Source: an uncultured Planctomycetota bacterium
GTDB lineage: Bacteria > Planctomycetota > Phycisphaerae > Phycisphaerales > UBA5793
Length of the DNA stretch: 55,443 nt
Direction of reading: 5' to 3'
Assembly: GCA_900696685.1 (NCBI GenBank)
Contig: CAADHA010000032.1
Span: forward strand, 1-55,443
Shown here: positions 14,911 through 31,053 of the stretch, in pieces
How the letters are laid out: the number at the start of each line of letters is the position of its first letter
Numbering within the stretch: position 1 is the first letter of the stretch
Notes under the pieces: generated by a model
What the model was told of the DNA's origin: nothing
The model's input: only the letters and a program-made list of their open reading frames with translations
Database searches by the model: none
Made by a program: the position numbers and the translations under genes

Positions 14911-14942
14911 CCCGCATTTCGAGTACCCGGACGGAAGCCACC

Positions 14943-15380
14943 ATGTCGAATCTGATCGAAACTCCGATCCCGTTGCCGCAATCCCCGCGCCCGACATTAC
15001 CGGCCTCGGGTCGGGTCCCCGAGACGCCCGCGGACCGCCGCCTGAGGCGCGATCTGCGGACACTCTCTCTGTTCATCGAAACCTGGTGCCGCGCACATCA
15101 CGCCCGCCGGCGAAATTCCCCGGTGCGGATGAAGTCGCATGATGTGCCGGCCATTGCGGGCTGCGAAGTCTCGCTCTGCGCGTCCTGCAGGAAACTGCTG
15201 CAGCACTCGTGGGTGAAGCGGACGACCTGCCCTCTTGACCCCAAGCCCGCGTGCAAGCACTGCCCCTCGCACTGCTACCACCCGCACTACCGGCGGCGGA
15301 TCAGGATGGTGATGCGCGACTCGGGCCGGCGCTTGCTCATGCGCGGCCGACTCGACTACCTGCTGAAACTGCTCTTCTGA
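14943..15380 (+). CDS. YgbA-like protein, nitrous oxide-stimulated promoter family
   Basis: Small cysteine-rich protein of the family represented by E. coli YgbA. The C-terminal half carries the family core: CEVSLCASCRKLLQHS, CPLDPKPACKHCPSHCY, then HYRRRIRMVMRDSGRRLL, giving a C-x4-C-x2-C and C-x7-C-x2-C-x3-C arrangement consistent with a metal or Fe-S site. E. coli ygbA belongs to the nitrosative-stress (NsrR) regulon; its biochemical function is not firmly known. 145 residues; a Pro-rich N-terminus of about 35 residues precedes the domain. It lies between a divergent kinase-like gene and a convergent sigma-54 activator, behind a near-consensus sigma-54 promoter. The ATG at 14943 has GGAAG upstream; an earlier ATG at 14793 would lie antisense in the kinase gene and is rejected. 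Confidence 0.85.
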   Translation: MSNLIETPIPLPQSPRPTLPASGRVPETPADRRLRRDLRTLSLFIETWCRAHHARRRNSPVRMKSHDVPAIAGCEVSLCASCRKLLQHSWVKRTTCPLDPKPACKHCPSHCYHPHYRRRIRMVMRDSGRRLLMRGRLDYLLKLLF

Positions 15381-15398: not shown

Positions 15399-16802
15399 TC
15401 ATTCGTCCGACTTGGCGATCCCGAGTTCCTCCATCTTTCGATAGAGTGAGGAGAGGCCGATGCCGAGGTGGCGCGAGCATTCGTTCTTGTCGTAGCCGTG
15501 GCGGCGGAGCGAGTAGAGGATGTGCTGGCGTTCGAACTGGCGCAGGGCTTCGCGGAGTTCCTCCCCGCCTTCGCCGGTCGCCTCGCCGCCGCCGAAGGGC
15601 AGATCGGCGACACCGATCTCATGGGAGTCGGCGAAGATGACGGCTCGCTCAACGACGTTCTCGAGTTCGCGGATGTTGCCCGGCCAGTCATGGCTCAGCA
15701 GGGCGCGCATGGCGCCGTTTGTCATGCCTGGCACGGGCTTGTTCATCTGGCTCGCATACTTCCTGAGGAAGTGATGCGCGAGAAGCGGGATGTCCTCGCG
15801 GCGCTGTCGCAACGGCGGGAGTTCAATCTTCACCACGTCCAGCCGGTACATCAGGTCCTCGCGGAACTGTCCCTTGGAGACCATCTCGCGCAGGTCGCGG
15901 TTGGTCGCGGCGATGATGCGGACATCCACCGGCCGGCCTCGCGTGTCGCCCACGGGAACGACCACGCGCTCCTCAAGGACGCGCAGGAGCATGGACTGAG
16001 TCGCGAGGGGGAGCGTCGAGATCTCGTCGAGGAAGAGCGTCCCCCCCCCGGCCGCCTCGAAATAGCCGACGCGGTCCGCCGTCGCGCCGGTGAAGGAGCC
16101 TTTTCGGTGTCCGAAGAGTTCGGAGGCAATGAGCGTTTCCGGGATCGCGCCGCAGTTGACGGGAACGAAAGGCTTGTCTCGCGTCACGCCGTTGTAATGG
16201 ATCGCCCGGGCGATGAGTTCCTTGCCGGTCCCGGATTCGCCGAAAATCAACACCGTGCTCTTGACGGCCGCGAGGCGGCGGACCATCTCGAAGAGGCGCA
16301 GCATCGAGGGCGCCTGACCGACAAGGTTGTCAAAGGCGCACTCGGCCGCGAGTTGTTCCGTCATCAGCCGGTTGGCGCGCCACATCTCACCGTGCGCCAG
16401 CGCCCGTTCGACCTTGAGGAGCAGGTCTTCGAACTGGATAGGTTTGAGGAGGTAGTCGGCGGCGCCGGCCCGCATCGACTCGACGGCGCTGTCCACCGTG
16501 CCGTAGGCCGTCAGGATCACCACAGGCGTCTGCGGCGCCAGGCGGCGCAGATTGGCCAGCAAGGCCAGCCCGTCCATCTCGGGCATGCGAACGTCCGCGA
16601 GCACGAGATCGAAGGGCCGCTCCAGCGCCTTCTCGTATGCGATGCGCCCATTGGGGGCCTGCACGACGCTGTAGCCCTCCTGCTCGAGCAGTTCCGCGAG
16701 CGACTCGCGGAGAACCTGCTCATCTTCGGCAATGAGGATGGATCGGGGCATGGGGGCGTCGTTCGCTTTCCCGCTGGCCGCCGTTTCCCGCTTCTGCTCC
16801 AT
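15399..16802 (-). CDS. NtrC-family sigma-54-dependent response regulator
   Basis: Phosphorylation-controlled activator of sigma-54 RNA polymerase. Receiver domain (about 20-135) with acidic pair ED at 26-27, phospho-acceptor Asp70 in LVLADVRMPEMDG and Lys120. AAA+ domain with Walker A GESGTGKE (188-195), the sigma-54 contact loop GSFTGA (235-240, variant of GAFTGA) and Walker B GGTLFLDE (253-260). A Fis-type helix-turn-helix ends the protein (SRHLGIGLSSLYRKMEELGI). 467 residues. ATG 16802 or ATG 16751 (MPRSILIAEDE) may start it. Three candidate sigma-54 promoters lie within 2.4 kb, which suggests local targets. Confidence 0.95.
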   Translation of the reverse strand: MEQKRETAASGKANDAPMPRSILIAEDEQVLRESLAELLEQEGYSVVQAPNGRIAYEKALERPFDLVLADVRMPEMDGLALLANLRRLAPQTPVVILTAYGTVDSAVESMRAGAADYLLKPIQFEDLLLKVERALAHGEMWRANRLMTEQLAAECAFDNLVGQAPSMLRLFEMVRRLAAVKSTVLIFGESGTGKELIARAIHYNGVTRDKPFVPVNCGAIPETLIASELFGHRKGSFTGATADRVGYFEAAGGGTLFLDEISTLPLATQSMLLRVLEERVVVPVGDTRGRPVDVRIIAATNRDLREMVSKGQFREDLMYRLDVVKIELPPLRQRREDIPLLAHHFLRKYASQMNKPVPGMTNGAMRALLSHDWPGNIRELENVVERAVIFADSHEIGVADLPFGGGEATGEGGEELREALRQFERQHILYSLRRHGYDKNECSRHLGIGLSSLYRKMEELGIAKSDE

Positions 16803-16871: not shown

Positions 16872-17429
16872 TCAGGGCTTCAGAAACTCCTCCGGGATGG
16901 GGAACTGCTCCGTCTCACGCTGCCAGAGGACGCTGACGATCCACCACCGCCCGGCGCTCTCGACGAGTTGAATGCTGTTGACGCCGCGTGCGTAGGGCTG
17001 CTCCTCTTGCGCGGTCCGGCGGCTCTCGTAGACGCTCAGCACGTGGGCGATCTGTCCAAAGCGCTCGATGCGCATCGAGGCGGACTTCTCGAAGTAGCCC
17101 GATCCTTCAAGATAGCGGCGCTCCCGCTCAACGTACTCCTCAACAGGCACGCTGTCGACGACGGCCGTGCCGTGCGCCGCCCGGGCCACGCTCAGCCTTG
17201 CGCCGGGGAAGAACAGGGCGCGATAGCGGTCCCAGTCGCGGGCCTGCCCCTTTGGTCCGGAGATGGTGTCGTACATCGCCGCCACGATGCTCTCGACTGT
17301 GCGGACATGTTCCGGGTGAACAGCTGCACCATGGGCCTCCATTCCGCCCGGAGGCTGGACAGCGGCGGGTACATTGAAAGGAACCAGGGCGGAAAGGCAG
17401 AATGCGGCAAGACACAGTGCGCGGCGCAT
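16872..17429 (-). CDS. Secreted NTF2/SnoaL-like protein
   Basis: 185 residues with a signal peptide (MRRALCLAAFCLSALVPFNVPAAV) and a mature part shaped like the small alpha+beta-barrel NTF2/SnoaL group: an N-terminal helix (VESIVAAMYDTISGPKG), RDWDRYRALFFPGARL, and C-terminal strands with VNSIQLVESAGRWWIVSVLW. No catalytic residues can be assigned. The start at 17429 has AGGAG upstream; the frame is open further upstream but unlike coding sequence. It is divergent from the multihaem operon and has its own candidate sigma-54 promoter, suggesting a shared role. Confidence 0.75.
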   Translation of the reverse strand: MRRALCLAAFCLSALVPFNVPAAVQPPGGMEAHGAAVHPEHVRTVESIVAAMYDTISGPKGQARDWDRYRALFFPGARLSVARAAHGTAVVDSVPVEEYVERERRYLEGSGYFEKSASMRIERFGQIAHVLSVYESRRTAQEEQPYARGVNSIQLVESAGRWWIVSVLWQRETEQFPIPEEFLKP

Positions 17430-17464: not shown

Positions 17465-17480
17465 TGCAACTGGCGTACCG
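17465..17480 (-). promoter_or_regulatory. Candidate sigma-54 promoter before the NTF2-like gene
   Basis: Minus strand reads CGGTACGCCAGTTGCA: GG at 17479-17478, GC at 17467-17466, 10 bp apart, with a perfect TTGCA -12 element and two mismatches in the -24 element. The predicted start near 17454 is about 25 nt before the ATG at 17429 and leaves room for its AGGAG. Confidence 0.6.
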
Positions 17481-17700: not shown

Positions 17701-17716
17701 CGGCACGTAACGTGCA
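17701..17716 (+). promoter_or_regulatory. Candidate sigma-54 promoter of the multihaem operon
   Basis: CGGCACGTAACGTGCA: GG at 17702-17703 and GC at 17714-17715, exactly 10 bp between. Two bases differ from TGGCACG-N4-TTGCA. It overlaps a 13-bp palindrome GCACGT-A-ACGTGC (17703-17715). The predicted start near 17727 lies about 60 nt before the first gene. Confidence 0.6.
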
Positions 17717-17786: not shown

Positions 17787-19181
17787 ATGCAAGTCCGCGG
17801 TCCGATTCTGCGGACCTGGCTCCTTGCGTGGCTGATCGTTCTCGGGCCTGGCGGGGGGCTGGCCATGATCGCCCCTGGCACGGACCAGCCGCCGCGCAAG
17901 CCGACATCGGCGACAGCAACGTGTACGGAGTCGGGCTGCCACGCCGACCTCCTGGCGCACCGCTTCCTGCATGGTCCGGCGGCGGGCCAGAAGTGCGACG
18001 CCTGCCACGAATACGAAGAGCCGCGCGAGCATCGTTTCCGCGATCTCGCTGAACGCGACCTGTGCGCAAAGTGTCATCCGATGGAGCACCGCAACGTGGT
18101 GCACAAGCCGGTGCGCGACGGGCAATGCAGCGGCTGCCACGACCCCCACGGGTCGGATCACCGCAAGATGCTCATCGCCGATCCGAGCCGGGGGTTGTGC
18201 GTAACCTGCCACATCCATGAGCAACGGGCGGAGGAGCACGTGCATGGGCCCGTGGCGGCAGGCGCGTGCATCCTCTGCCATGAGCCGCACTCCTCGTGGA
18301 GACCCGGCCTGCTGGTGAAGGACTCCAACGACCTCTGCGCGGATTGCCACGCGGAAGTGCGCCAGAGCGGCGCGGGGCTGCACCTCCACGCCGCGATGGA
18401 ACAGGGCTGCACCAGTTGCCACAATCCACACGCCTCGCTCAACCAGTTCATGCTCCACAAGCCGACCGATGAACTCTGCGCGTCGTGCCACAACAGCCTA
18501 GTGGAGTCGCTGTCCTCATCGGCGGTGGTGCATGGAGCCGTTCACGAGGCCAACGGCTGCACGCAGTGCCACTCGCCGCACTCGTCGATGCTGCCGAATC
18601 TCCAGAAGCATGCCGAGCCGGAGACGTGCCTCGCATGCCACGACCGGCCGGTGAAGGCGGCGTCGGGCCGGCTGCTCACCAACATGGCTCTTCTGCTGCA
18701 TGAGTCGCCGGACCATCACGGCCCGATCCGCGAAGGATCGTGCTCGTCGTGCCACGAGCCTCATGCGGCCGAGCATGCCAATCTCCTCGTCGAAACCTAT
18801 CCGCCCGAGTTCTACGCCCCGTTCAACGTGGATCGGTACGCGCTGTGTTTCAGTTGCCACATGCCGGAGATGGCGACGAGCAAAGCGGGGCCGGGCCTGA
18901 CGCGCTTCCGCGACGGCGACCTCAACCTGCACTGGCTGCACGTCAACCAGGAAAAGGGCCGCACCTGCCGCGCCTGCCACGAAGTGCACGCATCCAAGCG
19001 TCCGTTCCACATCCGTGAGTCAGTTCCTTTCGGGAGCAGCGGCTGGATGCTGGAGATCAACTTTGAGGCTTTGCCGGACGGCGGAACATGCGCACCGGGC
19101 TGCCACGTCGAGCGGACGTACGCGCGCGGCGAGGCCGTGCGCCCCGTTGAGTCTCGATCCACCAGGGGAGGCGCTCCATGA
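17787..19181 (+). CDS. 15-motif multihaem cytochrome c (doubled CXXCH type), paralogue 1
   Basis: 464 residues with an N-terminal export signal (ILRTWLLAWLIVLGPGGG). I count 13 CXXCH motifs plus CTESGCH (CX4CH) at the N-terminus and CAPGCH (CX3CH) near the C-terminus. Many are in the paired form C-x2-CH-x-PH typical of doubled-CXXCH domains (CDPHG, CHEPHSS, CHNPHAS). Conserved non-haem blocks LVETYPPEFYAPFN, LTRFRDGDLNLHWLHV and FGSSGWMLEINFE are shared with the two paralogues at 27049 and 28578. Predicted periplasmic electron carrier; redox partners are inferred from the operon. The ATG at 17787 is chosen for the signal peptide; the frame is open further upstream into the promoter. It overlaps the next gene by 4 nt. 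Confidence 0.92.
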   Translation: MQVRGPILRTWLLAWLIVLGPGGGLAMIAPGTDQPPRKPTSATATCTESGCHADLLAHRFLHGPAAGQKCDACHEYEEPREHRFRDLAERDLCAKCHPMEHRNVVHKPVRDGQCSGCHDPHGSDHRKMLIADPSRGLCVTCHIHEQRAEEHVHGPVAAGACILCHEPHSSWRPGLLVKDSNDLCADCHAEVRQSGAGLHLHAAMEQGCTSCHNPHASLNQFMLHKPTDELCASCHNSLVESLSSSAVVHGAVHEANGCTQCHSPHSSMLPNLQKHAEPETCLACHDRPVKAASGRLLTNMALLLHESPDHHGPIREGSCSSCHEPHAAEHANLLVETYPPEFYAPFNVDRYALCFSCHMPEMATSKAGPGLTRFRDGDLNLHWLHVNQEKGRTCRACHEVHASKRPFHIRESVPFGSSGWMLEINFEALPDGGTCAPGCHVERTYARGEAVRPVESRSTRGGAP

Positions 19182-20197
19182 AGTGTCCGCGTCGGCCGGT
19201 CATCCCGGTCTCCCTTCTGATTGTCTCGCTGTGTGCCGCGCTCGCCGCGAGCGCCGCCGTGCCGCCCGCCGGTTCCACCGCGGCGCCTCTTACGCTCTCC
19301 GACCTCGACGGCAATGCGTTCGAGCCGGCCCGCGTCCGCGACCGGCCGTATCTCCTCATCTTCGGCGAACTCTACCACAAGCAGACGCGCGAAGCGTGCG
19401 CCGAGATCGAGCGCGTGCTCGCCGACCAGCGTTTCGCCGGCGACGGACTGGCGCCTGTTCTCATCGTGGCGCAGCGCCTCTCGCGCCTGGAACTCAAGAC
19501 TCAGGCTGAGTCGCTTGGGTTTGCGGGGATCATCCTGCATGACCCCGACCGGCGCGCCTTCGCCGACTATCGCATCAGCGTCATGCCTTCAGTCGTGGTC
19601 GTCGGGCGCGACCAGAAGGTGATTCACAGTCTTCCCGGCCTGACGCCTCGATTCGCCGACATCCTCACGGACGCACTCCTGGTCGGTCTCGGCCGACTCA
19701 GCGCCGCCCGCTTCGAAGAAACGCTGCGCGGCGGGGACGGCGTCGCACTCAAGGAAGAACAGGTCAGGGCGAACCGCCTCACGCAACTGGCGCGGCAACT
19801 GGCGCGCCGCGGTCTGGATGAAATGGCCGAGGAGAAGTACAGCGAAGCGCTGCACCTCTGGCCCGAGAGCGTCGAGGCCCGACTCGGCCTCGGCAGGCTG
19901 CACCTCAAGCGCCGCCGCATCGCCGACGCCGAGTCCCAGTTCCGCGCCGTCCTCGCCGCCTCGCCCGATCTCGTCGAGGCGACGCTCGGTGTGGCGTTCG
20001 TGCAGACCGTCCGCGGCGGAGACGAACTCGTCGAAGCCGAACGTCTCGTGCGAGGCGTGCTCGATCGCGACGCCTCCCAGCCCCGCGCCCACTACCTGCT
20101 CGGACTGATCCACGAGCAGCGCAACAAGATGAATGAGGCCGCGGCCAGTTACCGCCGCGCCGCTGAACTGCTCCTTGAACGCCAGGTCGCGGAGTGA
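19178..20197 (+). CDS. Exported thioredoxin-fold/TPR protein without CXXC, copy 1
   Basis: 339 residues. Signal peptide (about 1-27), then a thioredoxin-like fold: a strand LLIFGELYHKQTREAC where CXXC would be, and the cis-Pro loop region ISVMPSVVVVGRDQKV. The catalytic cysteine pair is missing. From about residue 195 there are TPR-like helical repeats (ANRLTQLARQLARRGLDEMA, ARLGLGRLHLKRRRIADAES, HYLLGLIHEQRNKMNEAAAS). It is translationally coupled (ATGA) to the preceding cytochrome. A similar protein closes the operon at 30055. A scaffold or assembly factor for the cytochromes is plausible but inferred. Confidence 0.82.
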   Translation: MKCPRRPVIPVSLLIVSLCAALAASAAVPPAGSTAAPLTLSDLDGNAFEPARVRDRPYLLIFGELYHKQTREACAEIERVLADQRFAGDGLAPVLIVAQRLSRLELKTQAESLGFAGIILHDPDRRAFADYRISVMPSVVVVGRDQKVIHSLPGLTPRFADILTDALLVGLGRLSAARFEETLRGGDGVALKEEQVRANRLTQLARQLARRGLDEMAEEKYSEALHLWPESVEARLGLGRLHLKRRRIADAESQFRAVLAASPDLVEATLGVAFVQTVRGGDELVEAERLVRGVLDRDASQPRAHYLLGLIHEQRNKMNEAAASYRRAAELLLERQVAE

Positions 20198-20202
20198 GCA
20201 CG

Positions 20203-20661
20203 ATGTCAGATCATCACGAACACGAGCATGATGTCGCCTGCGAACCGCTTACCTGCGGCCGGCGGCGCTTCTGCCAGGCGGCCATCGGCGGAGCAACGGC
20301 GATCACCGTCGGGACAGTCGTGTATCCCATCGTCGCATTTCTCAAGCTCCCCGTCCGGCTCGGCGACGCGAAACCCGTCGAGGTTCCGCTCGAACGCCTC
20401 GTGCCCGGACAGGCCTACTACGCGGACTTCCAGGGGCAGCAGGTGATCGTTGTCATGGCCGAAGCCGGTCCGAAGGTCTTCGACGCGGCATGCACGCACC
20501 TCGGCTGCAACGTGGTGTGGGACACGGCCCATTCCAACTTCCATTGCCCCTGCCACGGAGCGGTCTTCAGCGGCGAAGGCAAGGTCGTCAGCGGACCCGT
20601 CAGCACGCCTCTGCGCGAAGTGCCGTTCGAGGTGAAGAACGGAGTGCTTGTGATCTCGTGA
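20203..20661 (+). CDS. Rieske [2Fe-2S] protein of a cytochrome b complex
   Basis: Transfers electrons from quinol to a c-type cytochrome. 152 residues: a His-rich N-terminus, an RRR-F twin-arginine-like stretch (residues 20-23), one membrane anchor (about 27-48) and a Rieske domain with CTHLGC (Cys97, His99, Cys102) and CPCH (Cys115, Cys117, His118), that is all four cluster ligands and both disulfide cysteines. The ATG at 20203 is preferred because GGAG lies 8 bases upstream; a GTG at 20194 is possible. Next gene in the same direction is cytochrome b6. Confidence 0.95.
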   Translation: MSDHHEHEHDVACEPLTCGRRRFCQAAIGGATAITVGTVVYPIVAFLKLPVRLGDAKPVEVPLERLVPGQAYYADFQGQQVIVVMAEAGPKVFDAACTHLGCNVVWDTAHSNFHCPCHGAVFSGEGKVVSGPVSTPLREVPFEVKNGVLVIS

Positions 20662-20801
20662 GGACTGAGGCATCAAGGGATCGAGGGATCAGGTGTATGA
20701 GACGCTGAGGAGTTGATGAGACGACAGTGGCGGACCATTCGAGGCCACTTGCGTCCTCTTCTGCGGCGCACCAACTGAACGAAACGACAGGGACCAGGAA
20801 C

Positions 20802-21461
20802 ATGCGTGTGATACGGGACACCTACGGCTGGATCGACGAGCGCTTCGCGGTGACGCCGCTGCTGGAGAAGAACGTCACGAAGAAGATGGTGCCGCGCACT
20901 TTGTCGTGGGCGGGCTGTTTCGGCGGTCTGGCGTTCTTCACCTTCCTCGTGCAGGTCTTCACGGGCATGCTGCTGCTGATGTACTACAAGCCGCATCCGG
21001 AAGCGGCATGGGACAGCGTGACGTTCATCAAGTCAAACGTGACGATGGGGTGGCTGGTGCAGCGGATTCACGCCGTCGCCGCCAACCTGATGATCGCGCT
21101 CGTGCTCATGCACATGGCGCGCATCGCCTACTACAAGATCTACCGCAAGCCGCGCGAACTGCACTGGATGAGCGGCGTCTTCCTGCTCCTGCTTACGACG
21201 ATGATGGCCTTCACGGGCTACCTCCTGCCGTGGACGCAACTGAGTTACTGGGGCGCCAAGGTGGGAACGGAGATTCCCAGCGCCATCCCGATCATCGGCC
21301 AGGACGTGGTCGAGTGGGTCCGCCGCGGCAAGGCGATCAGCGGCGAGACGCTGGGATTCTTCTTCTCCCTGCACATCTGGATACTCCCAGCCGTGATGAG
21401 CGCGTTCATGGGTCTGCACTTCGTGATGATCCGGAGGACGGGCATCTCGCGGCCGCTGTGA
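20802..21461 (+). CDS. Cytochrome b6-type subunit with conserved haem c_n cysteine
   Basis: Membrane subunit that binds two b haems and oxidises quinol. 219 residues, four transmembrane helices. Haem ligands are His90/His104 in helix B and His191/His206 in helix D; the 13 and 14 intervening residues are the b6-type spacing (bc1 cytochrome b has 13 and 13). Cys39 in AGCFGGLAFFTFLVQVFTG aligns without gaps to the Cys of b6 that carries covalent haem c_n. About 140 bp without a gene precede it. With the Rieske gene upstream and the split subunit IV downstream this is a b6f/Firmicute-like arrangement. Confidence 0.95.
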   Translation: MRVIRDTYGWIDERFAVTPLLEKNVTKKMVPRTLSWAGCFGGLAFFTFLVQVFTGMLLLMYYKPHPEAAWDSVTFIKSNVTMGWLVQRIHAVAANLMIALVLMHMARIAYYKIYRKPRELHWMSGVFLLLLTTMMAFTGYLLPWTQLSYWGAKVGTEIPSAIPIIGQDVVEWVRRGKAISGETLGFFFSLHIWILPAVMSAFMGLHFVMIRRTGISRPL

Positions 21462-21493
21462 GCGGCTGAAGACTGCCGAGGAAGGACCCGGCG

Positions 21494-23146
21494 ATGGGCG
21501 TCGATTACAGAGAGCAATACGAGCCGGACCAGCTCGAGCCGTTCTGGCCCAACGAGATCATCAAGATGATCGTGTCAGTGCTCTGCTGCCTGGCGATCAT
21601 CATGTTTCTCGTGATTCTGCCGGTGCTGCTCGAAATGGTCGGTCTGCCGGGCCTGGCGCACGAGGAGCAGCCGGCCAACCCGCGCGGCTCGACGCCCATC
21701 GGCATCAAGCCCGAGTGGTACTTCCTCGCTGTCTACCAGTACCTGCGCATCTGGCCGACGGAACTGCTCGGCCTGAGCGGCAAGACGTGGGGCGTGCTCA
21801 GCCAGGGACCGCTCATCCTCGTCATCGTCCTGCTGCCCTTCATTTATCGCGGGCGCCGCGCCTTCACACGCCCCAACTGGTGGTACCGCATCAGCGTCAC
21901 GGTCGTGCTTGCGCTGGCGATTCTCTTCACCTTCTGGGGCGGCTGGCCGGAGGCGCACGGAGAGAACGGCGAGCACCTCGCCCCGCTGCGCGACTACTTC
22001 ATGCACCAGCCGCTGTTCTTCATCTTCACCGCCCTGACGATCGTGGTCTTCTACGTGCTCGTGGCGCAGGAGCGCAAGGCGATCCGGCACGTGCTGCACC
22101 GCGAGACGGGCGCGTCGGCGGATCGCGCCTCGGGCGGATCGCAAGCGCGGCGCCCGCCGGCGAAAGCGTCCGCGCCGGCGCGGCACGGACTGGCCACGCC
22201 CGCAGCGCTCGGCGTGCTGTGTGCAGCGGCGCTGGCAGCCGTCGCCCTTGCCGCCCTCGCACCTCCCGCACCGAACGAGGACTACGGCGAAGATCCCTAC
22301 AGCCGGAACAACTGCGTGCAATGTCATGCCAATCTGCCGGGGCGCTCCAGCGAGATCGTCGAACTCGAATGGAAGCACAGCGTCCACTTCGGCGCGAAGG
22401 TGGGATGCGACGGCTGCCACGGCGGCAACGCCGCTCTTCGCCGCGAGCAGTTTGAGTCGGAGGACGCCTTCAAGCGCGCGGCCCACCTCGAACGCCACAC
22501 CGACTTCCTCGTCATGCATTCCGCAGAGCGCGAGTTCGTGAGCGAGGCGCGCGGGCGCGCGGTCTCCTACTTCTGCGGCAAGTGCCACGCGGACATCAAG
22601 GAGAAGCACCTCGGCAGCCCCCACGGCGACTTCGGCGACCCGACCTGCCTCTACTGCCATGGACAGGGGAGCCACCGCATCACCGAGCCTTCGCCTGAAA
22701 TCATCGACACGCGCTCGCGCGCGGAGGGCGGGCGATGCTCTCCTTGCCATCGGGCCGCGACAATGGAGGCCGTCGGCCGGATCAAGGACATTCTCGTGAC
22801 GACCGAGCAACAGGTGGCGGCTTCGACTGACCTCAGCGCCGATCTGACGGCGTGGGGCTATCGCAACCTCTCGCTCGAGCAGGCGCGGCAGAACGCGGCC
22901 GAGGTCAACTCGCGCCTGCGCCAGGTCTTTCACAGTTTCAACATGCGGGAGATCAACAACTTCGCCGCGGAAATCCGCGACGGGGTCGAACGAATCGAGG
23001 CGACGCACGAACTCGTGCAGCGCCTCAAGAGCCAGCAGCGCAGCCAGACGATGGTGGGCAGCGCCGCGGTGGCTCTGCTGCTGATGTTCTCAGGGCTGCT
23101 CGTGTATTACAAGCACGCGTTTCTCGACCGGGGACACGGGTCGTGA
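21494..23146 (+). CDS. Subunit IV-like cytochrome b C-terminal domain fused to pentahaem cytochrome c
   Basis: 550 residues. Residues 1-200 match subunit IV: helix at 23-45, the quinol-site motif PEWY (73-76) in GIKPEWYFLAVYQYLRIWP, and further helices at about 104-117, 133-150 and 172-190. A Pro/Ala linker and a membrane segment (about 233-257) follow. Residues 270-420 hold five CXXCH motifs (274, 305, 361, 385, 415), then a helical region and a last transmembrane helix (about 525-545). So the cytochrome that would normally be a separate cytochrome f or c1 is covalently attached to the quinol-oxidising half. No separate cyt f/c1 gene is seen in the operon. Confidence 0.92.
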   Translation: MGVDYREQYEPDQLEPFWPNEIIKMIVSVLCCLAIIMFLVILPVLLEMVGLPGLAHEEQPANPRGSTPIGIKPEWYFLAVYQYLRIWPTELLGLSGKTWGVLSQGPLILVIVLLPFIYRGRRAFTRPNWWYRISVTVVLALAILFTFWGGWPEAHGENGEHLAPLRDYFMHQPLFFIFTALTIVVFYVLVAQERKAIRHVLHRETGASADRASGGSQARRPPAKASAPARHGLATPAALGVLCAAALAAVALAALAPPAPNEDYGEDPYSRNNCVQCHANLPGRSSEIVELEWKHSVHFGAKVGCDGCHGGNAALRREQFESEDAFKRAAHLERHTDFLVMHSAEREFVSEARGRAVSYFCGKCHADIKEKHLGSPHGDFGDPTCLYCHGQGSHRITEPSPEIIDTRSRAEGGRCSPCHRAATMEAVGRIKDILVTTEQQVAASTDLSADLTAWGYRNLSLEQARQNAAEVNSRLRQVFHSFNMREINNFAAEIRDGVERIEATHELVQRLKSQQRSQTMVGSAAVALLLMFSGLLVYYKHAFLDRGHGS

Positions 23147-23155
23147 GGCCGGTGG

Positions 23156-25402
23156 ATGATGATGGCCAGGATCAATCAGATCGAGCAGCGCCCCGGCGCC
23201 GACCGGTCAGCGTCTCGCCCTCGTGCCGGACTTGTCCTCTGGCTGGCGGCGGCGTGGGCTGCTGCCGCGCCCGCCTTCGCCCAGCCGGAGCGCGTGGCGG
23301 CGGAGAATCGCCGCTGCCTCAACTGTCACGGCCAGGCGCACATCGCCACGCTTGATCCCTTTGAGAGACGGTCGATGATCGGCCTGGCGGACCGCGGCGC
23401 CACGCCGCCCGGTGAAGAGCCGGCGCAGCGGCCTCGCCTCTATCTCTCGCCCGAGGAATACCCGCTGCGCCTTCACACGGCCCTGTCGTGCGTGGACTGC
23501 CACGCCGACGCCCGCGACCTGCCGCACGCGCAGAAACTCAGGCCGAGCACCTGCTCATCAGGCGGCTGCCACGCGAAGGAGGCGTCGGCCTTTCTGCGAG
23601 GCGGGCACGCGGACGCGGCGCTGAAGTCCAACGGACCTGCGCCGACCTGCACGACCTGCCACGGCGGTCACGACATCCGCCCCGCCCGCGACCGTGATTC
23701 GAAGGTGCATCCGGTGAACATCGTGGCGACGTGCGGCGGCTGCCATGACAAGCACGCGCCGCACGCTGGAGACCAGCCCGCCGGCCAGGCGCTGGTGAGC
23801 GCGTATCTGGAGAGCGTGCATGGAACGCTGGTGACGCGCGGCGGCCTGGCCGTCGCCGCCACCTGTGCCGACTGCCACGGCTCTCACGAGGTCTACTCCT
23901 CCGACGATCCACGCTCGCTCGTTCACCGCGACAACGTGCCGACCACGTGCGGCCGGTGCCACGTCGGCATCAACGAAACCTATGAAAAGAGCGTTCATGC
24001 CCAGGTGCGCCGCGACGGGCGCGAGAACGGGCACAAGGCGCCGGTCTGCACCGACTGCCACACGGCCCACGGCATCTCGCGGACCAACGTGCCCGGCTTC
24101 ATGCTCGACATCGTCAACGAGTGCGGTGAGTGCCACGACGACCCCGCTCTCTCCGGCACGCGGCGCGCGACCTTCTATGAGACCTATCGCGCCAGTTACC
24201 ACGGGCAGGTGACGCGGCTTGGCTCGATGCGGGCGGCCCGCTGCAGCGACTGCCACGGCGCCCACGACATCCTGCCCATCCGCGATCCCGCTTCGCGCCT
24301 CCATCCCGATCATCGCGTGCAGGTCTGCCGGCAGTGCCATCCCGGCGCGAACGCCAACTTCACTCTCTTCGATCCTCACGCGGACTACCGCGACTACCGG
24401 CGCTATCCCCTGCTGCACGGCGTGTGGCTCTACTTCCTGATCGTCATCAGCGCCGCCTTCGGCTTCTTCGGCCTTCACTCGCTGCTGTGGTTCGGTCGGA
24501 TGCTGCTCGCCCGGCGCAGGCACGGACCGCGGCCGGACCACCGCGGCAAGCCGGCGATCCGTCGCTTCACGCGCATCAACCGGGTGAACCACGCGCTGGT
24601 GATCATCAGTTTCTTCGGTCTGACCTTCACGGGCATTCCCCTGTTCTTCTCGGAAAGGCCGTGGGCGCTGATGATGGCGAAGGTCTTCGGCGGCGTGGAC
24701 GCCGCGGGAGTGTGGCACCGCTTCTTCGCCGTGATGCTCATCGTCAACTTCCTCCTGCACGCGATCGGGCTGGCGAGGCATGCGACAGCCAGAGTGCGAT
24801 CCGACGCCCAGGCGGGGCGGACGCCGGTGCGGTCGCTCGCGTCATGGGCCTTCGGGCCGCATTCGCTCTTTCCCCGCTGGCGCGACGTGAAGGACTGCGC
24901 CGCGATGTTCCGCTACTTCTTCACCGGGCGGGGCAAGCCCGCCTTCGGGCGCTGGACCTACTGGGAGAAGTTCGACTACTGGGCGGAGATCATCGGCACG
25001 TTCATCATCGGCGGGTCGGGTCTGCTGCTCTGGTTTCCGACGCTCTTCTCGACCTGGCTTCCGGGGTGGATCTTCAATGTTGCAATGGTCGTGCATGGGT
25101 ACGAGGCGCTGCTGGCCGTCGGATTCATCTTCACCATCCACTTCTTCAACGCTCACATCCGCCTTGAGAAGTTCCCGGTGGATGATGTGATCTTCACCGG
25201 CCGGGTGGCGGAGGACGAGTTGAAGCACGAGCGGCCTGTGGAGTATGCCCACCTTGTGGAAACAGGGCGGCTGGAGGCGATGCGCATGCCCGCACCGCCG
25301 CGGTGGCAGCACATCGCGGCCGTCGTGTTCGGCATCACCGCCATGCTCATCGGTACGGGGATGGTGGTGCTCATCGTGCTGGCGGGCCTTCGGGCGCTTT
25401 AG
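23156..25402 (+). CDS. Multihaem cytochrome c fused to six-helix cytochrome b
   Basis: 748 residues. A signal peptide (about 24-43, AAAAPAFAQ end) is followed by a periplasmic region to about residue 420 with 10 CXXCH motifs and one CX4CH (CSSGGCH). Then come about six transmembrane helices with histidines placed as in b561/NrfD-free diheme cytochrome b membrane domains (for example NHALVIISFFGLTFTGIPLF, WHRFFAVMLIVNFLLHAIG, VHGYEALLAVGFIFTIHFF). The N-c/C-b layout recalls Geobacter CbcL-type quinone-linked proteins; homology beyond layout was not tested. Three in-frame ATGs (23156, 23159, 23162) start it. 9 nt from the preceding gene. Confidence 0.9.
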   Translation: MMMARINQIEQRPGADRSASRPRAGLVLWLAAAWAAAAPAFAQPERVAAENRRCLNCHGQAHIATLDPFERRSMIGLADRGATPPGEEPAQRPRLYLSPEEYPLRLHTALSCVDCHADARDLPHAQKLRPSTCSSGGCHAKEASAFLRGGHADAALKSNGPAPTCTTCHGGHDIRPARDRDSKVHPVNIVATCGGCHDKHAPHAGDQPAGQALVSAYLESVHGTLVTRGGLAVAATCADCHGSHEVYSSDDPRSLVHRDNVPTTCGRCHVGINETYEKSVHAQVRRDGRENGHKAPVCTDCHTAHGISRTNVPGFMLDIVNECGECHDDPALSGTRRATFYETYRASYHGQVTRLGSMRAARCSDCHGAHDILPIRDPASRLHPDHRVQVCRQCHPGANANFTLFDPHADYRDYRRYPLLHGVWLYFLIVISAAFGFFGLHSLLWFGRMLLARRRHGPRPDHRGKPAIRRFTRINRVNHALVIISFFGLTFTGIPLFFSERPWALMMAKVFGGVDAAGVWHRFFAVMLIVNFLLHAIGLARHATARVRSDAQAGRTPVRSLASWAFGPHSLFPRWRDVKDCAAMFRYFFTGRGKPAFGRWTYWEKFDYWAEIIGTFIIGGSGLLLWFPTLFSTWLPGWIFNVAMVVHGYEALLAVGFIFTIHFFNAHIRLEKFPVDDVIFTGRVAEDELKHERPVEYAHLVETGRLEAMRMPAPPRWQHIAAVVFGITAMLIGTGMVVLIVLAGLRAL

Positions 25403-25474
25403 TGGTTCTGCCTTGTCCACTTTTGGCGCGCGGGGCACGGGGATTGCGGAGTGAATGGTGCAACGGAGTCTGGC

Positions 25475-27052
25475 ATGACCGATCCAGCGGAAAAACACGA
25501 TTCATGCGAACAGCCGCGGCCGACCCCGGCGGCGGCCGCTCCCCGGTCCGCCCCGGGCTGGTGGCGGCTGCTGGGCCTGCGCCGCGCCAATCGCCGCTAC
25601 CTCCCTGTCGGGTTGACGCTCTGGGGCAAGATCGCCTATCCGGCGGTCATCCTCGTCGCGGGCGGGCTGGGGTTCGTCGAATACTCCATGCAACCGGACT
25701 TCTGCCGCTCCTGTCACATCATGGAGCCGTATTACAAAGCATGGCACGAGTCCACACACCGGGACGTGCCCTGCGGCGACTGCCACTTTGAGCCGGGATT
25801 GGAGAACACGCTCAAGGGCAAGTGGCAGGCGAGCAGCCAGGCTGTCAGTTACATCACGCGGACGTACGGCTCCAAGCCCCACGCGCAGATCCAGGATGCC
25901 TCGTGCCTCCGGGCCGGCTGCCACGAGCAGCGGCTCCTCAGGGGGCTCAGCGAGTGGGAAGTCGCCACGCACCGGGGCGACACGATCAAGATCCACTTTG
26001 ACCACGCGCCGCACCTCGGCGAGATGCGCCGCGGCAAGCAACTGCGCTGCGTCTCGTGCCACTCGCAGATCGTGCAGGGCCAGCACCTCGTCGTCACGCT
26101 CGACACCTGCTTCACCTGCCACTTCAAAGGAATGAAGCACGGGCGCGATGAAGAGGTAATCGGCGGCTGCGGCTCGTGCCACGGCGCGCCCAGAGGCGAC
26201 ATCCGGCTCTCCACCGGCATCTTCAACCACAAGGAGTTCCTCGATCGAGGCGTGGCGTGTGAAAACTGCCATGCCGAAGCCGTCAAGGGTGACGGCGAGG
26301 TGCCTCGCCAGATGTGCTGGAACTGCCACAACCAGCCCCAGCAACTGGCCCGCTACGGCGAGACGCAACTCCTGCACCGCGCCCACGTCACCGACCACAA
26401 ACTCGAATGCTCTGACTGTCACGTGCAGATCGAGCATCACCTGACGGCCAACGCCGCGAGGGCGCTTTCCTTCACCGGCTCCGACCACAAGCCGCTGGCG
26501 ACCTCGGAAGGTTGCGGACAGTGCCACGAAGGAACGCACTCCAGCCCGGCGCTGCTCTACAGCGGCCGCGGCGGGCACGGCGTGCCCCAGATGCCCAGCC
26601 CCATGTTCGTCGCACAGGTGGATTGCATCGCCTGTCACACCCAGGGCAAGGACGGCCTGTCTCACGGCGTAAGCGGGCGCACCTACCTTGCCGCGCAGAA
26701 GGCCTGCGACTCCTGCCACGGTCAGCGCTACGACGGCATTCTCGATATCTGGAAAAAGTCGATCGACACCCTTCTCACGGATGCGCAAGCCGCCGTAGAA
26801 GAGGCCCGGGCCGCACTCGACTCAACCCGCCCGGCCGATGAGAGGGAGCGACTCGACCTCGAGCGCCTCTTCAACGACGCCGCAGACAATGTGCTTTTCA
26901 TCCGCGCCGCCCACGGCGTTCACAACCTCACCTATGCCACGGCCCTGCTCAACCTGGCAATCGACAACTGCCGCGAGATCGTCGAGCGATTGACGTCGCC
27001 GCAGGCGGCGCCGACAGAAGAGGCGCAGCCATCGGAAGAGGATGAGCCGTGA
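25475..27052 (+). CDS. NapC/NirT-like membrane-anchored multihaem cytochrome c
   Basis: About 525 residues. One N-terminal transmembrane anchor (LWGKIAYPAVILVAGGLGFVEY, quoted in part) is followed at once by FCRSCHIMEPYYKAWHES and DVPCGDCHFEPG, the start typical of NapC/NirT quinol dehydrogenases. In total 11 CXXCH and one CX4CH (CLRAGCH). The last third (after about 420) is haem-free and helical, with an acidic end. Such proteins pass electrons from menaquinol to periplasmic carriers. The ATG at 25475 has GGAG six bases upstream; an ATG at 25451 also has GGAG nearby and would add eight residues. Confidence 0.9.
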   Translation: MTDPAEKHDSCEQPRPTPAAAAPRSAPGWWRLLGLRRANRRYLPVGLTLWGKIAYPAVILVAGGLGFVEYSMQPDFCRSCHIMEPYYKAWHESTHRDVPCGDCHFEPGLENTLKGKWQASSQAVSYITRTYGSKPHAQIQDASCLRAGCHEQRLLRGLSEWEVATHRGDTIKIHFDHAPHLGEMRRGKQLRCVSCHSQIVQGQHLVVTLDTCFTCHFKGMKHGRDEEVIGGCGSCHGAPRGDIRLSTGIFNHKEFLDRGVACENCHAEAVKGDGEVPRQMCWNCHNQPQQLARYGETQLLHRAHVTDHKLECSDCHVQIEHHLTANAARALSFTGSDHKPLATSEGCGQCHEGTHSSPALLYSGRGGHGVPQMPSPMFVAQVDCIACHTQGKDGLSHGVSGRTYLAAQKACDSCHGQRYDGILDIWKKSIDTLLTDAQAAVEEARAALDSTRPADERERLDLERLFNDAADNVLFIRAAHGVHNLTYATALLNLAIDNCREIVERLTSPQAAPTEEAQPSEEDEP

Positions 27053-28581
27053 GGACCACGAGGGTAACAACCCGGTGCCGCGGGCGCCCCGGCTGCGCGG
27101 CGCGCGGTTCCGTGCTGCCTGTCCTCGGCATGATCGCACTCATCGCTCTGATCGGAGCGGGATGCAGCCGCTCATCGGAACGGGACGACGAGGCAGGCAA
27201 GGCCGGCGGCGCTTCCGCGGACACGCCGATGCGATACGTCAAGTCGCCCTCGGCTCTGGAGCCGCCAGCGGTCATGCCGCGCTTCGTCGCTTCTGACCAT
27301 CCGGCGCCCCGGCCGGCGGAAGCGCTGGCGGAGGGGGCGTCCTGCGTCACGCCCGAGTGCCACGCCGCGTTCGGCGCGGCAGAGAGGATCCACGGCCCCA
27401 TCGCCGCAGGCGACTGCTTCTCCTGCCACTTCGAAGATGCGGGCGGACATACTTACCCGCTGCGCCGCGAGGGGGATCGCACCTGCACCTTCTGCCACCA
27501 GACCGGCCGCATGCGCGAACATCGCCACGCGGCGATGGATGCGCCGGGCTGCATGGGATGCCACGATCCGCACGCGGCCGGCAAGTTCCTCCTTGTGGCC
27601 GAATCGGTTGACCGCGTGTGCGCGACGTGCCACGCGCTCGACGAAGGCCGGCACGCGCACGGCCCCTACGCCGCGCGCGAGTGCTCGGCCTGCCACCTTC
27701 CGCACGACTCGAACAACGTCCACCTGCTGCGGGGCGGAAGCGGGTCGGATCACTGCTTCACCTGCCACGCCGAGACGCGCCACGCCCTCGCCAACGCGCC
27801 CTTCATTCATGCGCCGGCCGAATCCGAGTGCACGACCTGCCACGTCGCGCACGCCTCGAACTTCCCGGCGCATCTCAAGGGCCCGATCGAGTCGCTTTGC
27901 CTCGACTGCCACACGGGCCTGGAGGAAGCGATCGCCGGGGCGCGCACGTCGCACGCCGCGGTCTTCACGGCAGACTCCTGCGCGAATTGCCACGATGCGC
28001 ATGCATCGGGGCGCCCGCGGCTCCTGCGCGACCGGCAGACGACGCTGTGCCTCTCGTGCCACAACCGTGAAGTTGTCGCCAACGACGGGCGGAAGATCCC
28101 CGACATGACCGCGAGCGTCGTGAATCAGCGCTTCCTGCACGGCCCGGTCGAATCCGGCGACTGCTCCGCCTGCCACAACGTCCACGGCGCTTCACACGAC
28201 CGCCTCCTGCGCCAGAACTTCCCCACCAGTTTCTACGCGAAGTTCGATCTTCAGAACTACGCCCTCTGCTTCAGTTGCCACCCGCAGGACCTCGTCCTGT
28301 CGGAGCGCACGACCTCGCTCACCGACTTCCGCGACGGCGACCGCAACCTGCACTACCTGCACGTTCACCGCGACGAGAAGGGTCGGACATGCAAGACCTG
28401 CCACGCGATCCACGGCTCAGACCTGCCGCGCCATGTCGCCACGCAGGTGCCCTTTGAAAACTCGACGTGGCTCATGCCCATCGGCTTTGAGCGCCTCGAA
28501 GATGGGGGCAAGTGCGCGCCGGGATGCCACGTCGCAATGACCTACCACCGCGGGCAGGCGGAAACAGGAGGCCAGCCATGA
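27049..28581 (+). CDS. 15-motif multihaem cytochrome c lipoprotein, paralogue 2
   Basis: 510 residues, GTG start at 27049 overlapping the previous stop. The hydrophobic N-terminus ends in LIALIGAGCS, a plausible lipobox, so the protein may be lipid-anchored. Haem motifs: CVTPECH (CX4CH), 13 CXXCH, CAPGCH (CX3CH). It shares with paralogues 1 and 3 the blocks TSFYAKFDLQNYALCFSCH, LTDFRDGDRNLHYLHV and GFERLEDGGKCAPGCHV. An upstream disordered stretch of about 60 residues is specific to this copy. Confidence 0.9.
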   Translation: MRTTRVTTRCRGRPGCAARGSVLPVLGMIALIALIGAGCSRSSERDDEAGKAGGASADTPMRYVKSPSALEPPAVMPRFVASDHPAPRPAEALAEGASCVTPECHAAFGAAERIHGPIAAGDCFSCHFEDAGGHTYPLRREGDRTCTFCHQTGRMREHRHAAMDAPGCMGCHDPHAAGKFLLVAESVDRVCATCHALDEGRHAHGPYAARECSACHLPHDSNNVHLLRGGSGSDHCFTCHAETRHALANAPFIHAPAESECTTCHVAHASNFPAHLKGPIESLCLDCHTGLEEAIAGARTSHAAVFTADSCANCHDAHASGRPRLLRDRQTTLCLSCHNREVVANDGRKIPDMTASVVNQRFLHGPVESGDCSACHNVHGASHDRLLRQNFPTSFYAKFDLQNYALCFSCHPQDLVLSERTTSLTDFRDGDRNLHYLHVHRDEKGRTCKTCHAIHGSDLPRHVATQVPFENSTWLMPIGFERLEDGGKCAPGCHVAMTYHRGQAETGGQP

Positions 28582-30005
28582 GACTCAGCCGAACACTCTT
28601 CGCCTCAATCGCCACGCTCACCGCGGGCCTCACGCTCCTGGCGATGCAGGATCCGCCGAGGTCGAAAAGGCCCGCGGCCGCGGTTCCGCAAACCTCCTGC
28701 GTGACGGCTGAATGCCACGCCGACGTCAAGAAGCACGACATGCTGCACGGCCCGGTGGCAGTGGACGCCTGCGACGCCTGCCACAGCCCGGTGAGCCTGC
28801 CCGACCACACGTTCACGCTGGTGCGCGAGGCCAAGGACCTGTGCCTCTTCTGCCACGAGATGGATGTGACGGGCGCGAAGACGGTGCATGAGCCGCTCAA
28901 GACCGGCGACTGCCTCTCGTGCCACAATCCGCACGGCGGTTCGAGCCGTCTGCTTCTCACGGCGGGCAGCCCGTCGGCCCTCTGCCAGCAGTGCCACGCC
29001 GACGTCTTCACCGGCAGGAAGTCGATCCACGGCCCGGTTGCGGCGGGCGCCTGCGCCGCGTGTCACTCGCCGCACGCCTCGCCGCACGAGCATCTCCTCC
29101 TTGCCCAGGGGCGCGAACTGTGCCTCCAGTGCCACACCACCACGCGCACGCAGGTCGAGACGATGCGGTACGTGCACGGCCCGGTCAACACCGATTGCGC
29201 CTCGTGCCACGACCCGCACGCCTCTGATCATCCGATGATGCTCCACGAGGCGCCAGGCGCGCTGTGCCTGACCTGCCACGAGACGATCAAGCACATCGTG
29301 GACACGGCCACGACGCAGCATGCCGCCGTCACGACCGACCAGGAGTGCCTCAACTGCCACGAGTCGCACGCATCGGACCATCCGCGCATTCTCAAGGGCG
29401 ACATGATGGACCTGTGCCTCAAATGCCACAACCGCGAGATCAAGATGCCCGACGGGCGCAGCCTCGCCAACATGAAGGCCGTCTTCGCCACGGGCGCAAG
29501 CCTGCACGGACCGGTGGCGCAGCACAACTGCGCGGCGTGCCACGAGATTCACGGCGGGGGCAACTTCCGCCTGCTCGTGCATGAGTACCCGCCGCAGTTC
29601 TACGCCCCCTTCAAGGAGGAGAGCTACGCCCTGTGCTTCTCGTGCCACGACAAGGATCTCGTGCATGACGAGAAGACCACGGCGCTGACCAACTTCCGCA
29701 ACGGCGACACCAACCTGCACTTCCTCCACGTCAACAAGGACAAAAAGGGCCGGACCTGCCGCGCCTGCCATGAAACCCATGCGAGCAACAAGGCCAACCA
29801 CATCCGCGAATCGGTCCCATTCGGCACAGGCGGGTACAAACTCCCGATCAACTTCGAGAAACTCGCGGACGGGGGCAAGTGCGCGCCGGGTTGCCACGTG
29901 GCTTACGAATACAACCGCACCAAGGCGGTCGAGTATCGCGCCGCGGACAAGGCCGCGACCTGGCCCGGCGAACAGCCGGCCCAGCCGCCGGGCGGGAACC
30001 GATGA
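28578..30005 (+). CDS. 15-motif multihaem cytochrome c, paralogue 3
   Basis: 475 residues, ATG at 28578 overlapping the previous TGA and preceded by AGGAGG. Signal peptide MRLSRTLFASIATLTAGLTL. Motifs: CVTAECH (CX4CH), 13 CXXCH, CAPGCH (CX3CH), in the same order as paralogues 1 and 2. Several units end C-x2-CH-x-PH/SHAS-D-H (CHDPHASDH, CHESHASDH), i.e. internal repeats of the doubled-CXXCH type. The C-terminal 30 residues are Pro/Ala-rich. Predicted periplasmic electron carrier. Confidence 0.92.
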   Translation: MRLSRTLFASIATLTAGLTLLAMQDPPRSKRPAAAVPQTSCVTAECHADVKKHDMLHGPVAVDACDACHSPVSLPDHTFTLVREAKDLCLFCHEMDVTGAKTVHEPLKTGDCLSCHNPHGGSSRLLLTAGSPSALCQQCHADVFTGRKSIHGPVAAGACAACHSPHASPHEHLLLAQGRELCLQCHTTTRTQVETMRYVHGPVNTDCASCHDPHASDHPMMLHEAPGALCLTCHETIKHIVDTATTQHAAVTTDQECLNCHESHASDHPRILKGDMMDLCLKCHNREIKMPDGRSLANMKAVFATGASLHGPVAQHNCAACHEIHGGGNFRLLVHEYPPQFYAPFKEESYALCFSCHDKDLVHDEKTTALTNFRNGDTNLHFLHVNKDKKGRTCRACHETHASNKANHIRESVPFGTGGYKLPINFEKLADGGKCAPGCHVAYEYNRTKAVEYRAADKAATWPGEQPAQPPGGNR

Positions 30006-30054
30006 GTCGAGATGAATGAAGCGCCCATCGCGGCGCGGGTAAGGAGCCGACGTC

Positions 30055-31053
30055 ATGAGAATCATTCCCTGGATGGCCTTGGGCGCGGCGGCCCTCGCCG
30101 CGGCGGCGGCCCTCGCCGCAGCCGACGACCTGCGCGTCGTCAAGCGCGGTGAGATGATCCCCCCCTACTCGCTCACCGCACTGAGCGGACCGAACGTTGA
30201 CAACGCCTCGAAGCGCGAGCGAGCGTCCATAATCGTGTACCTCTCGGCACAGCAGGTCAGTTCGACGAGGGCAGCCGTCGACTCCCAGCAGGTGGCGACG
30301 GCGCTGAGGCGGAGTGATCTCGAACTCCAGCACATCACTGCCGACGTTGCCCAGGCCAACTGGTTCCGCGAGTTCCGCGACAGCGCCGGCGTTCGCGCGC
30401 CGCTCGGTCTGGACTTCGACCGCATCTTCTACGGCCAACTCGGGGTCATCGTCCTTCCCACGACCATCGTCGTTGATGCCAAGGGGCGGCTGAAGCATGT
30501 GATCGCGGGCTACAAGCCGGACTTCGCTCACGTCCTCGATGCCTACGCCCGCCATGCCCTCGGGCTGCTCGACGATGCACAACTCGAAGAGGCGCTGGCC
30601 GCCAAGGGTTTTGCACGTGATGCGCCCGCGGACCGCGCTGCGCGCCACCGCGCCGCGGCGAATCTGCTGCGCGAGCGCGGCCTGCTCGAGGATGCCGAGA
30701 AGGAACTGCGCAAGGCCATCGAGATCGACCCGCAGGGCGTGGACAGCCGCCTCGACCTCGCTTCGCTCTGTATCGCCCTTCGGCGCTTCGACGAGGCCGA
30801 GTCGCTGGTGAACGAAGCCGTGAAGATCGAAGCCGACAACCGCCGCGCGAAACTCCTGCGCGGGATTCTGCGTTACCATGCCGGCGATCTCGACGAAGCG
30901 GAGAGAATTCTCACCGAATCCCTCGTGCTGAACACCGACCCGGCGCGCGCGCATTACTTCCTCGGCTTGATCCACGAGGCGAGGAAGAACTCCGAGAAAG
31001 CACTCGAACATTACCGCAAAGCACTCGAGCGCCTCCTCGGTGAGAAACCGTAA
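30055..31053 (+). CDS. Exported thioredoxin-fold/TPR protein without CXXC, copy 2
   Basis: 332 residues. Ala-rich signal peptide (1-23), a thioredoxin-like domain with SIIVYLSAQQVSSTRAAV in place of the CXXC helix and a preserved cis-Pro strand (LGVIVLPTTIVVDAKGRL), then TPR-type repeats (AANLLRERGLLEDAEKELRK, LASLCIALRRFDEAESLVNE, HYFLGLIHEARKNSEKALEH). Only one Cys in the mature protein, so it cannot be a dithiol oxidoreductase. Paralogue of the 19178 gene, which likewise follows a 15-motif cytochrome. Last gene of the operon. Confidence 0.82.
   Translation: MRIIPWMALGAAALAAAAALAAADDLRVVKRGEMIPPYSLTALSGPNVDNASKRERASIIVYLSAQQVSSTRAAVDSQQVATALRRSDLELQHITADVAQANWFREFRDSAGVRAPLGLDFDRIFYGQLGVIVLPTTIVVDAKGRLKHVIAGYKPDFAHVLDAYARHALGLLDDAQLEEALAAKGFARDAPADRAARHRAAANLLRERGLLEDAEKELRKAIEIDPQGVDSRLDLASLCIALRRFDEAESLVNEAVKIEADNRRAKLLRGILRYHAGDLDEAERILTESLVLNTDPARAHYFLGLIHEARKNSEKALEHYRKALERLLGEKP

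Follow-up and report, generated by a model that had tools for sequence, protein, structure and literature searches.

Can a single run of genes carry electrons away from the quinone pool of a planctomycete toward the outside of the cell, and by which routes? The question is raised by a contig of 55,443 nucleotides (CAADHA010000032.1; the whole stretch is referred to as the window) from an uncultured member of the Phycisphaerae (assembly GCA_900696685.1, 4.3 Mb in 215 contigs, completeness 94%). Ten genes of its forward strand, g1 to g10 (17787-31053), encode a Rieske/cytochrome b6 module, a CbcL-like protein, an NrfH-like protein and three 15-haem cytochromes. This ten-gene run is real, conserved and functionally coherent, and we give an even chance to the reading that it specifies half of a trans-envelope electron-transfer chain, the part in the inner membrane and periplasm, with three quinol exits. 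The sequence establishes which genes and haem motifs are present, the b6 ligands, the PEWY and Rieske motifs, the conservation of the gene order and the division into separate cassettes. The genes were annotated by Pfam and NCBIfam profile matches judged against the family cut-offs, and relatives come from a draw of 397 genomes of the class; labels with G denote genomes and labels with L denote loci, L009-L011 being contigs from three relatives of the same genus and G359 the closest relative.

The gaps from g1 to g10 measure -4, -4, 65, 32, 9, 48, -4, -7 and 49 nucleotides, in agreement with the first-pass annotation, which had described ten same-strand genes with mostly 4-bp overlaps or short gaps. 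Our recount of the c-haem motifs also returned identical figures, 65 CXXCH, 5 CX4CH and 3 CX3CH (73 altogether), the CXXCH motifs being distributed over g1 to g10 as 13, 0, 0, 0, 5, 10, 11, 13, 13 and 0. Several Pfam families exceed their cut-offs, namely Paired_CXXCH (g1, g8 and g9; E 1e-55 to 1e-66), Rieske, Cytochrome_B, Cytochrom_B_C and NapC/NirT, and the haem motifs are therefore not attributable to chance. The same matches confirm the Rieske, b6, subunit IV, NapC-like and multihaem/cytochrome b proteins named at first, with g5 refined to a fusion and g6 to a CbcL-like protein (Table 1). Across 28 aligned rows of the 15-haem family, both cysteines of CX4CH and the whole of CX3CH are invariant, and the CX4CH histidine is nearly so; all 21 aligned rows of g6 keep its CX4CH. 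Beyond the 73, b-haems are expected in g4 and g6, and the b6-type cysteine of g4 may bind an extra haem.

Table 1. Genes of the ten-gene run and predicted elements of its control region (positions in the window).
Feature	Position	Strand	Description
g1	17787..19181	+	15-haem paired-CXXCH cytochrome, cassette A type
g2	19178..20197	+	TPR protein; weak AhpC-type match (below cut-off); signal-like N-terminus; without CXXC
g3	20194..20661	+	Rieske iron-sulfur protein, motif CTHLGC...CPCHG
g4	20727..21461	+	b6-type cytochrome b
g5	21494..23146	+	Subunit IV (PEWY) fused to pentahaem domain; C-terminal helices
g6	23156..25402	+	CbcL-like: 11 haem motifs, then cytochrome b561-type membrane domain
g7	25451..27052	+	NapC/NrfH-like anchor (CRSCHIM), extended to 12 haem motifs
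g8	27049..28581	+	15-haem paired-CXXCH cytochrome; lipobox-like N-terminus (by eye); cassette B position 1
g9	28575..30005	+	15-haem paired-CXXCH cytochrome; cassette B position 2
g10	30055..31053	+	TPR protein; weak ResA-type match (below cut-off); signal-like N-terminus; without CXXC
Sigma-54-type -24/-12 site	17701..17716	+	Upstream of g1; 9-10 of 12 consensus matches
Divergent sigma-54-type site	17465..17480	-	Before the small minus-strand gene
Small protein	16872..17429	-	Signal-like N-terminus; no Pfam match; conserved in L009-L011
Sigma-54-dependent response regulator	15399..16802	-	78-88% identical and divergent in L009-L011
HAMP/HisKA sensor protein	13799..15076	-	Two-component system beside the operon
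PilS-like histidine kinase	12435..13802	-	Two-component system beside the operon

The three same-genus relatives each carry all ten genes in unchanged order, their haem counts likewise identical, so that the order put forward for a synteny check is kept, and genes never occurring together elsewhere is not what was observed. Outside the genus, the order divides into two cassettes. Cassette A consists of a 15-haem cytochrome, a TPR protein, the Rieske protein, b6, subunit IV and a penta- or hexahaem cytochrome; cassette B consists of the CbcL-like and NrfH-like proteins, two 15-haem cytochromes and a TPR protein. The single unit around a b6/Rieske core that had been proposed thus gives way to two cassettes, apart in the other genomes examined, each with its own 15-haem partner: here they stand end to end, the Rieske/b6/IV-pentahaem module with one 15-haem protein and the CbcL-like/NrfH-like pair with two. 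A match to g5 is present in 19 of the 397 genomes; the fused form occurs in the own genome and the three same-genus genomes, in 13 further genomes subunit IV has a frame of its own close to the multihaem gene, and the remaining two have another Rieske/b type. A Rieske/b6 cassette of the cassette A kind is found in 17 of the 397 genomes. A g1-like 15-haem gene comes first in all 13 out-of-genus cassette A genomes and a TPR gene is present in seven; six cassette A genomes of a single family are without the TPR gene and carry a six-motif cytochrome. Cassette B is complete in L012, L013 and L014, runs off the contig in L020, L021 and L055, and is without the NrfH-like gene in L018, L019, L022 and L028, while in L013 and L020 that gene lies in two frames. 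Both cassettes are divergent neighbours in L134, and a g6 match at E<=1e-200 occurs in 4 of the 13 out-of-genus cassette A genomes vs 14 of 393 overall (Fisher p 6e-4). As a separate observation, WYBR01000109.1 (L009) is filed as Vicinamibacteraceae yet is the closest same-genus relative, and it is perhaps a mislabelled bin.

The first of the three quinol exits would be the Rieske/b6 module. The protein encoded by g4 aligns over its full length with plant and algal b6 (181.8 bits), and its axial histidine positions and CxGG cysteine are in register with plant and cyanobacterial b6; in the b6f complex this cysteine carries an extra haem. Among the cassette A loci, the CxGG cysteine, the histidine pair of helix B and the PEWY of subunit IV are present in 17 of 17, the helix D pair in 15 of 17 by pattern, and the strict Rieske motif pattern in 13 of 17 (unmatched in L139, L140, L141 and L143). 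Since none of the ten genes matches a Pfam or NCBIfam model of cytochrome f or c1, and subunit IV continues into a pentahaem domain, the module was classed as a multihaem Rieske/b complex and not as b6f; the pentahaem domain would replace cytochrome f. Among the best 120 of 217 protein matches, the full g5 fusion is covered solely by the first 12. Multihaem proteins also replace cytochrome f in the Rieske/cytochrome b complexes Kustd1480-1485 and Kuste4569-4574 of Kuenenia (PMC12954380). A b6-like cytochrome b, a subunit IV-like protein, a Rieske protein and the multihaem cytochrome are common to both systems; unlike in Kuenenia, the pentahaem domain is here fused to subunit IV and 15-haem and CbcL/NrfH-like proteins are added, whereas the NAD(P) oxidoreductase and HAO-like protein described there were not found among the ten genes. 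The PEWY-containing module should bifurcate electrons at its Rieske/b6 site and conserve most energy, and would therefore suit high-potential acceptors. The TPR proteins, from which CXXC is absent in 17 of 17 rows, may hold or assemble the 15-haem proteins.

Two further exits would be provided by cassette B. The g6 protein follows the CbcL plan, a periplasmic multihaem domain and then a b-haem membrane domain, and we refer to it as “CbcL-like” by this domain plan, not by comparison with the Geobacter CbcL sequence. Its score against PF01292 (cytochrome b561), 30.0 bits, is just short of the cut-off of 30.1, and a histidine of its membrane part is invariant across all 21 rows. The g7 protein exceeds the cut-off of PF03264 (NapC/NirT; 34.6 bits vs 24.1), has an NrfH-type CXXCHXM first haem and aligns with NrfH (2j7a), while falling short of the NrfH equivalog cut-off of NCBIfam (48.6 vs 134.2). 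In Geobacter, ImcH, CbcL and CbcBA are found at separate loci. These inner-membrane quinol oxidases are reported to serve acceptors of differing potential, CbcL being used with low-potential ones (PMC9129911). The g6 protein shares the plan of Geobacter CbcL, with 11 haem motifs vs nine, and differs in its setting, which includes a Rieske/b6 module and gathers everything in one run. The parallel with ImcH, CbcL and CbcBA is a functional one and not one of common descent for all parts. Three different membrane modules would oxidise quinol, with the CbcL-like protein as the low-potential exit and g7 as an NrfH-like exit, and their presence in a single run would let the cell fit energy yield to acceptor potential, which Geobacter reportedly does with its three oxidases. 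The joining of quinol-oxidising-type modules to a long c-haem relay, as first suggested, is supported. A distant second case of three quinol modules together was noted in L030, L042, L061 and L062 (Ignavibacteriales, Bacteroidota, KSB1), where the set comprises a 19-haem CbcL-like protein, a 7-haem cytochrome (NapC-like by match in three of the four), a Rieske protein, a fused b6-IV and a 9-11-haem cytochrome.

The 15-haem cytochromes sort by gene position. In a tree of 45 such proteins, groups A (17 rows), B1 (12) and B2 (11) are recovered, with five rows ungrouped, each group lying on its own side of a branch (support 100/100, 100/100 and 88/77, respectively). The predicted model of g9, the sole one tested, has an MtrA-like fold across its first ten haem sites (MtrA being chain A of structure 6r2q). 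The g9 protein scores 127.1 bits against TIGR03508, the DmsE decahaem family, short of the cut-off of 192.2, and the same family is matched at E<=1e-10 by 28 of 28 aligned relatives. With MtrA of MtrCAB (PMC8805035), the paired CXXCH haems and a predicted fold match over ten haem sites are shared; on the other hand, the 15-haem proteins have five more haem sites, stay below the DmsE-family cut-off and belong to a genome without an MtrB/PioB match. Predicted to be MtrA-like, they would likely relay electrons to a conduit, probably in the outer membrane, whose genes lie elsewhere in the genome.

A candidate for this conduit came from clustering the open reading frames of 29 cassette-bearing loci (window included), which returned, in addition to cassette and regulator genes, a haem-free, porin-like family of about 650-700 residues near the cassettes in L013, L014, L021, L024, L132 and L140. 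In the own genome, contig C160 carries a run of six genes, encoding in order a tetrahaem protein, an NHL protein, a pentahaem protein, the porin-like protein, a second NHL protein and a 12-haem cytochrome. In G359 these six genes (68-86% identical) keep their order and lie convergent to the ten-gene run, about 2.4 kb past it. The statement of the first-pass annotation that no outer-membrane porin is visible consequently applies to the window alone. The porin-like gene lies about 108 kb off on the same contig in G172 and on another contig in G107. It is present in 113 of the 397 genomes, including 17 of 17 cassette A genomes and 93 of the 96 genomes in which a CbcL-like protein was matched (about a quarter of those sampled, a count that takes in many distant types, with E down to 1e-10); in 25 of these 93 genomes carrying both, the two genes are less than 15 kb apart. 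The C-terminal residue is phenylalanine in six of eight aligned porin-like members. The Uet clusters of Tenderiales and Gallionella include an undecahaem protein, a tetrahaem protein, NHL proteins and a porin (PMC10734462), and C160 resembles them, by make-up, in its 12-haem, tetrahaem and two NHL proteins, the counterpart of the porin being the porin-like protein, which scores below every family cut-off. The 12-haem, tetrahaem and two NHL proteins are likewise common, by make-up, to the NHL/multihaem clusters of D. ferrophilus (PMC9769857). Differing from both, C160 has a pentahaem protein in place of the trihaem proteins, and no peptidyl-prolyl isomerase was noticed in it. Electrons may leave the cell via this cluster. 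Two tetrahaem genes on contig C18 (L100:6564-8279) are 60-63% identical to the C160 tetrahaem gene. Upstream of cassette A in L135 (2541-4874) lies a gene for a 12-haem protein with a beta-propeller-like N-terminal stretch (by eye) and distant similarity only to the 12-haem family of C160.

The operon is predicted, from its upstream sequence, to be under sigma-54 control by the divergent two-component system. The sites of Table 1 were scored out of 12 against a -24/-12 consensus, and are predictions rather than mapped promoters. The site upstream of g1 occupies the same alignment columns in the own genome and L009-L011; the divergent one is in register in L009 only, L010 and L011 having a like-scoring site elsewhere in the region. 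The regulator and both sensors are kept divergent upstream in L009-L011 (with the sensors in part truncated where the loci end), and parts of this set are also near cassettes in L012, L013, L014 and L132. Seven sites scoring 10 or more exist on both strands of the window. Outside the genus, such a site precedes 12 of 25 chosen cassette starts (up to 600 bases) vs 0.59 expected, an expectation computed from the same loci as the tested starts (p 1e-13). As for the surroundings, SecY (9-1424, -) and a ribosomal protein L3 match (10954-11796, -) lie to the left of the sensor genes and a sucC-like gene (31943-33217, +) to the right of the run, which is thus flanked by housekeeping genes on both sides. 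Three large open reading frames at 34939-36942 (-), 37900-39774 (+) and 39771-40907 (+), of 667, 624 and 378 residues, have no Pfam match at E<=0.001.

Several points weigh against the trans-envelope chain, besides the breadth of the CbcL-like count. All genome counts are over kindred, non-independent genomes, and the predicted model of g5 is poor (predicted local distance difference test score, pLDDT, 66). MtrB/PioB (PF11854) gave 0 matches at E<=1 in the own genome, 94% complete, and the 15-haem proteins are therefore without MtrA's known partner. No Pfam or NCBIfam model exceeds its cut-off on the porin-like family (Porin_4, 19.4 of 27 bits), the own member has a beta-moment z of 1.1 and is a barrel by resemblance only, and among 86 public relatives few are named porin or OmpV-like, most being nameless or hypothetical. 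The porin-like gene occurs without a CbcL-like match in 20 genomes, and the reverse in three. Finally, the conduit-like cluster lies on a separate contig from the operon in the own genome, and the stretches around it and its G359 copy hold no sigma-54-type sites scoring 10 or more, so that co-regulation of C160 and the operon is unsupported. The genomes departing from the CbcL/porin-like pairing are G071, G238 and G370 (CbcL-like only) and 20 genomes from G005 to G393 (porin-like only). The wider proposal, that the Phycisphaerae own a separate trans-envelope chain, a sigma-54-switched redox gearbox of three quinol exits differing in energy yield, in which MtrA-derived 15-haem proteins dock to a porin-like/NHL/12-haem conduit, MtrB having been given up, and whose core is in about a quarter of the class, is put forward as tentative and less likely than not.

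An unlikely alternative is that the three quinol modules feed, through the 15-haem proteins, the cell's own periplasmic acceptors (NrfA, haem-copper oxidases), with no crossing of the outer membrane. Besides NrfHA, genes for three COX1-type proteins, for NrfD-type and molybdopterin proteins and for a second cytochrome b are present in the own genome; because of NrfHA, the haem-copper oxidases, the NrfD-type genes and the second cytochrome b, periplasmic acceptors are possible, a further point against the trans-envelope chain. The NrfA and NrfH of contig C63 together with the three COX1-type genes favour such a hub, as do the missing MtrB family match and the lack of a Pfam porin among the scanned open reading frames of the window; the porin-like/NHL/12-haem set, however, adjoins the cassettes in several relatives, and the porin-like gene accompanies nearly all CbcL-like matches (93 of 96), which argue against it, although this rival was probed less fully than the trans-envelope chain. 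On C63 (6000-24000; L095), the second cytochrome b gene is followed about 6 kb on by NrfA and NrfH on the opposite strand.

Rather improbable is electron uptake, in which an extracellular donor would reduce the conduit, the 15-haem proteins and then the quinone pool or oxidases. Against uptake, the best-documented role of Rieske/b6 complexes and NrfH/CbcL-type proteins is quinol oxidation. The likeness in make-up of C160 to the Uet of cathode-oxidising Tenderiales (PMC10734462) and the oxidases encoded in the genome are in favour of uptake, but a class survey reported no sign of chemolithoautotrophy in Phycisphaerales (PMC11266412). That two independent cassettes for different acceptors adjoin by chance in one genus and do not act jointly is quite unlikely: they are apart in the out-of-genus loci examined, with L134 as the sole divergent pair, and sigma-54-type sites precede the starts of each, yet throughout the four genomes of this genus they are joined, with short gaps here and an upstream site that aligns, and they co-occur outside the genus beyond the overall rate (the Fisher test above).

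The trans-envelope chain with three quinol exits has to be set beside what has been described. A survey of CbcL, MtoC and MtrH from 2018 tabled two CbcL-family homologues for Planctomycetes (PMC6295460); the word Rieske is absent from its text, and the wider CbcL family is far commoner here (96 of 397 genomes). Tunnel metagenomes indicated iron-reduction potential in 4 of 29 Planctomycetota genomes (PMC10732223), and the class survey reported no bc1 complex in Phycisphaerales and sought outer-membrane cytochromes with mtrBC models (PMC11266412). No description of the ten-gene set or of either cassette in Phycisphaerae was found in a full-text literature search judged by titles, abstract openings and text passages, a scope outside which supplements and most subscription journals lie. 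What is new here is the combination of two known kinds of quinol oxidiser and a Rieske/b6 module in one run with MtrA-like partners. The respiration of the Phycisphaerae, a group known mainly from environmental genomes, is poorly understood, and mtrBC models would likely miss the pair of CbcL-like and porin-like genes carried by 93 of the 397 genomes. If the proposed chain is true, it points to targets for knock-out or monitoring in cultured members, and the run would offer a natural test of whether bacteria switch quinol exits with acceptor potential.

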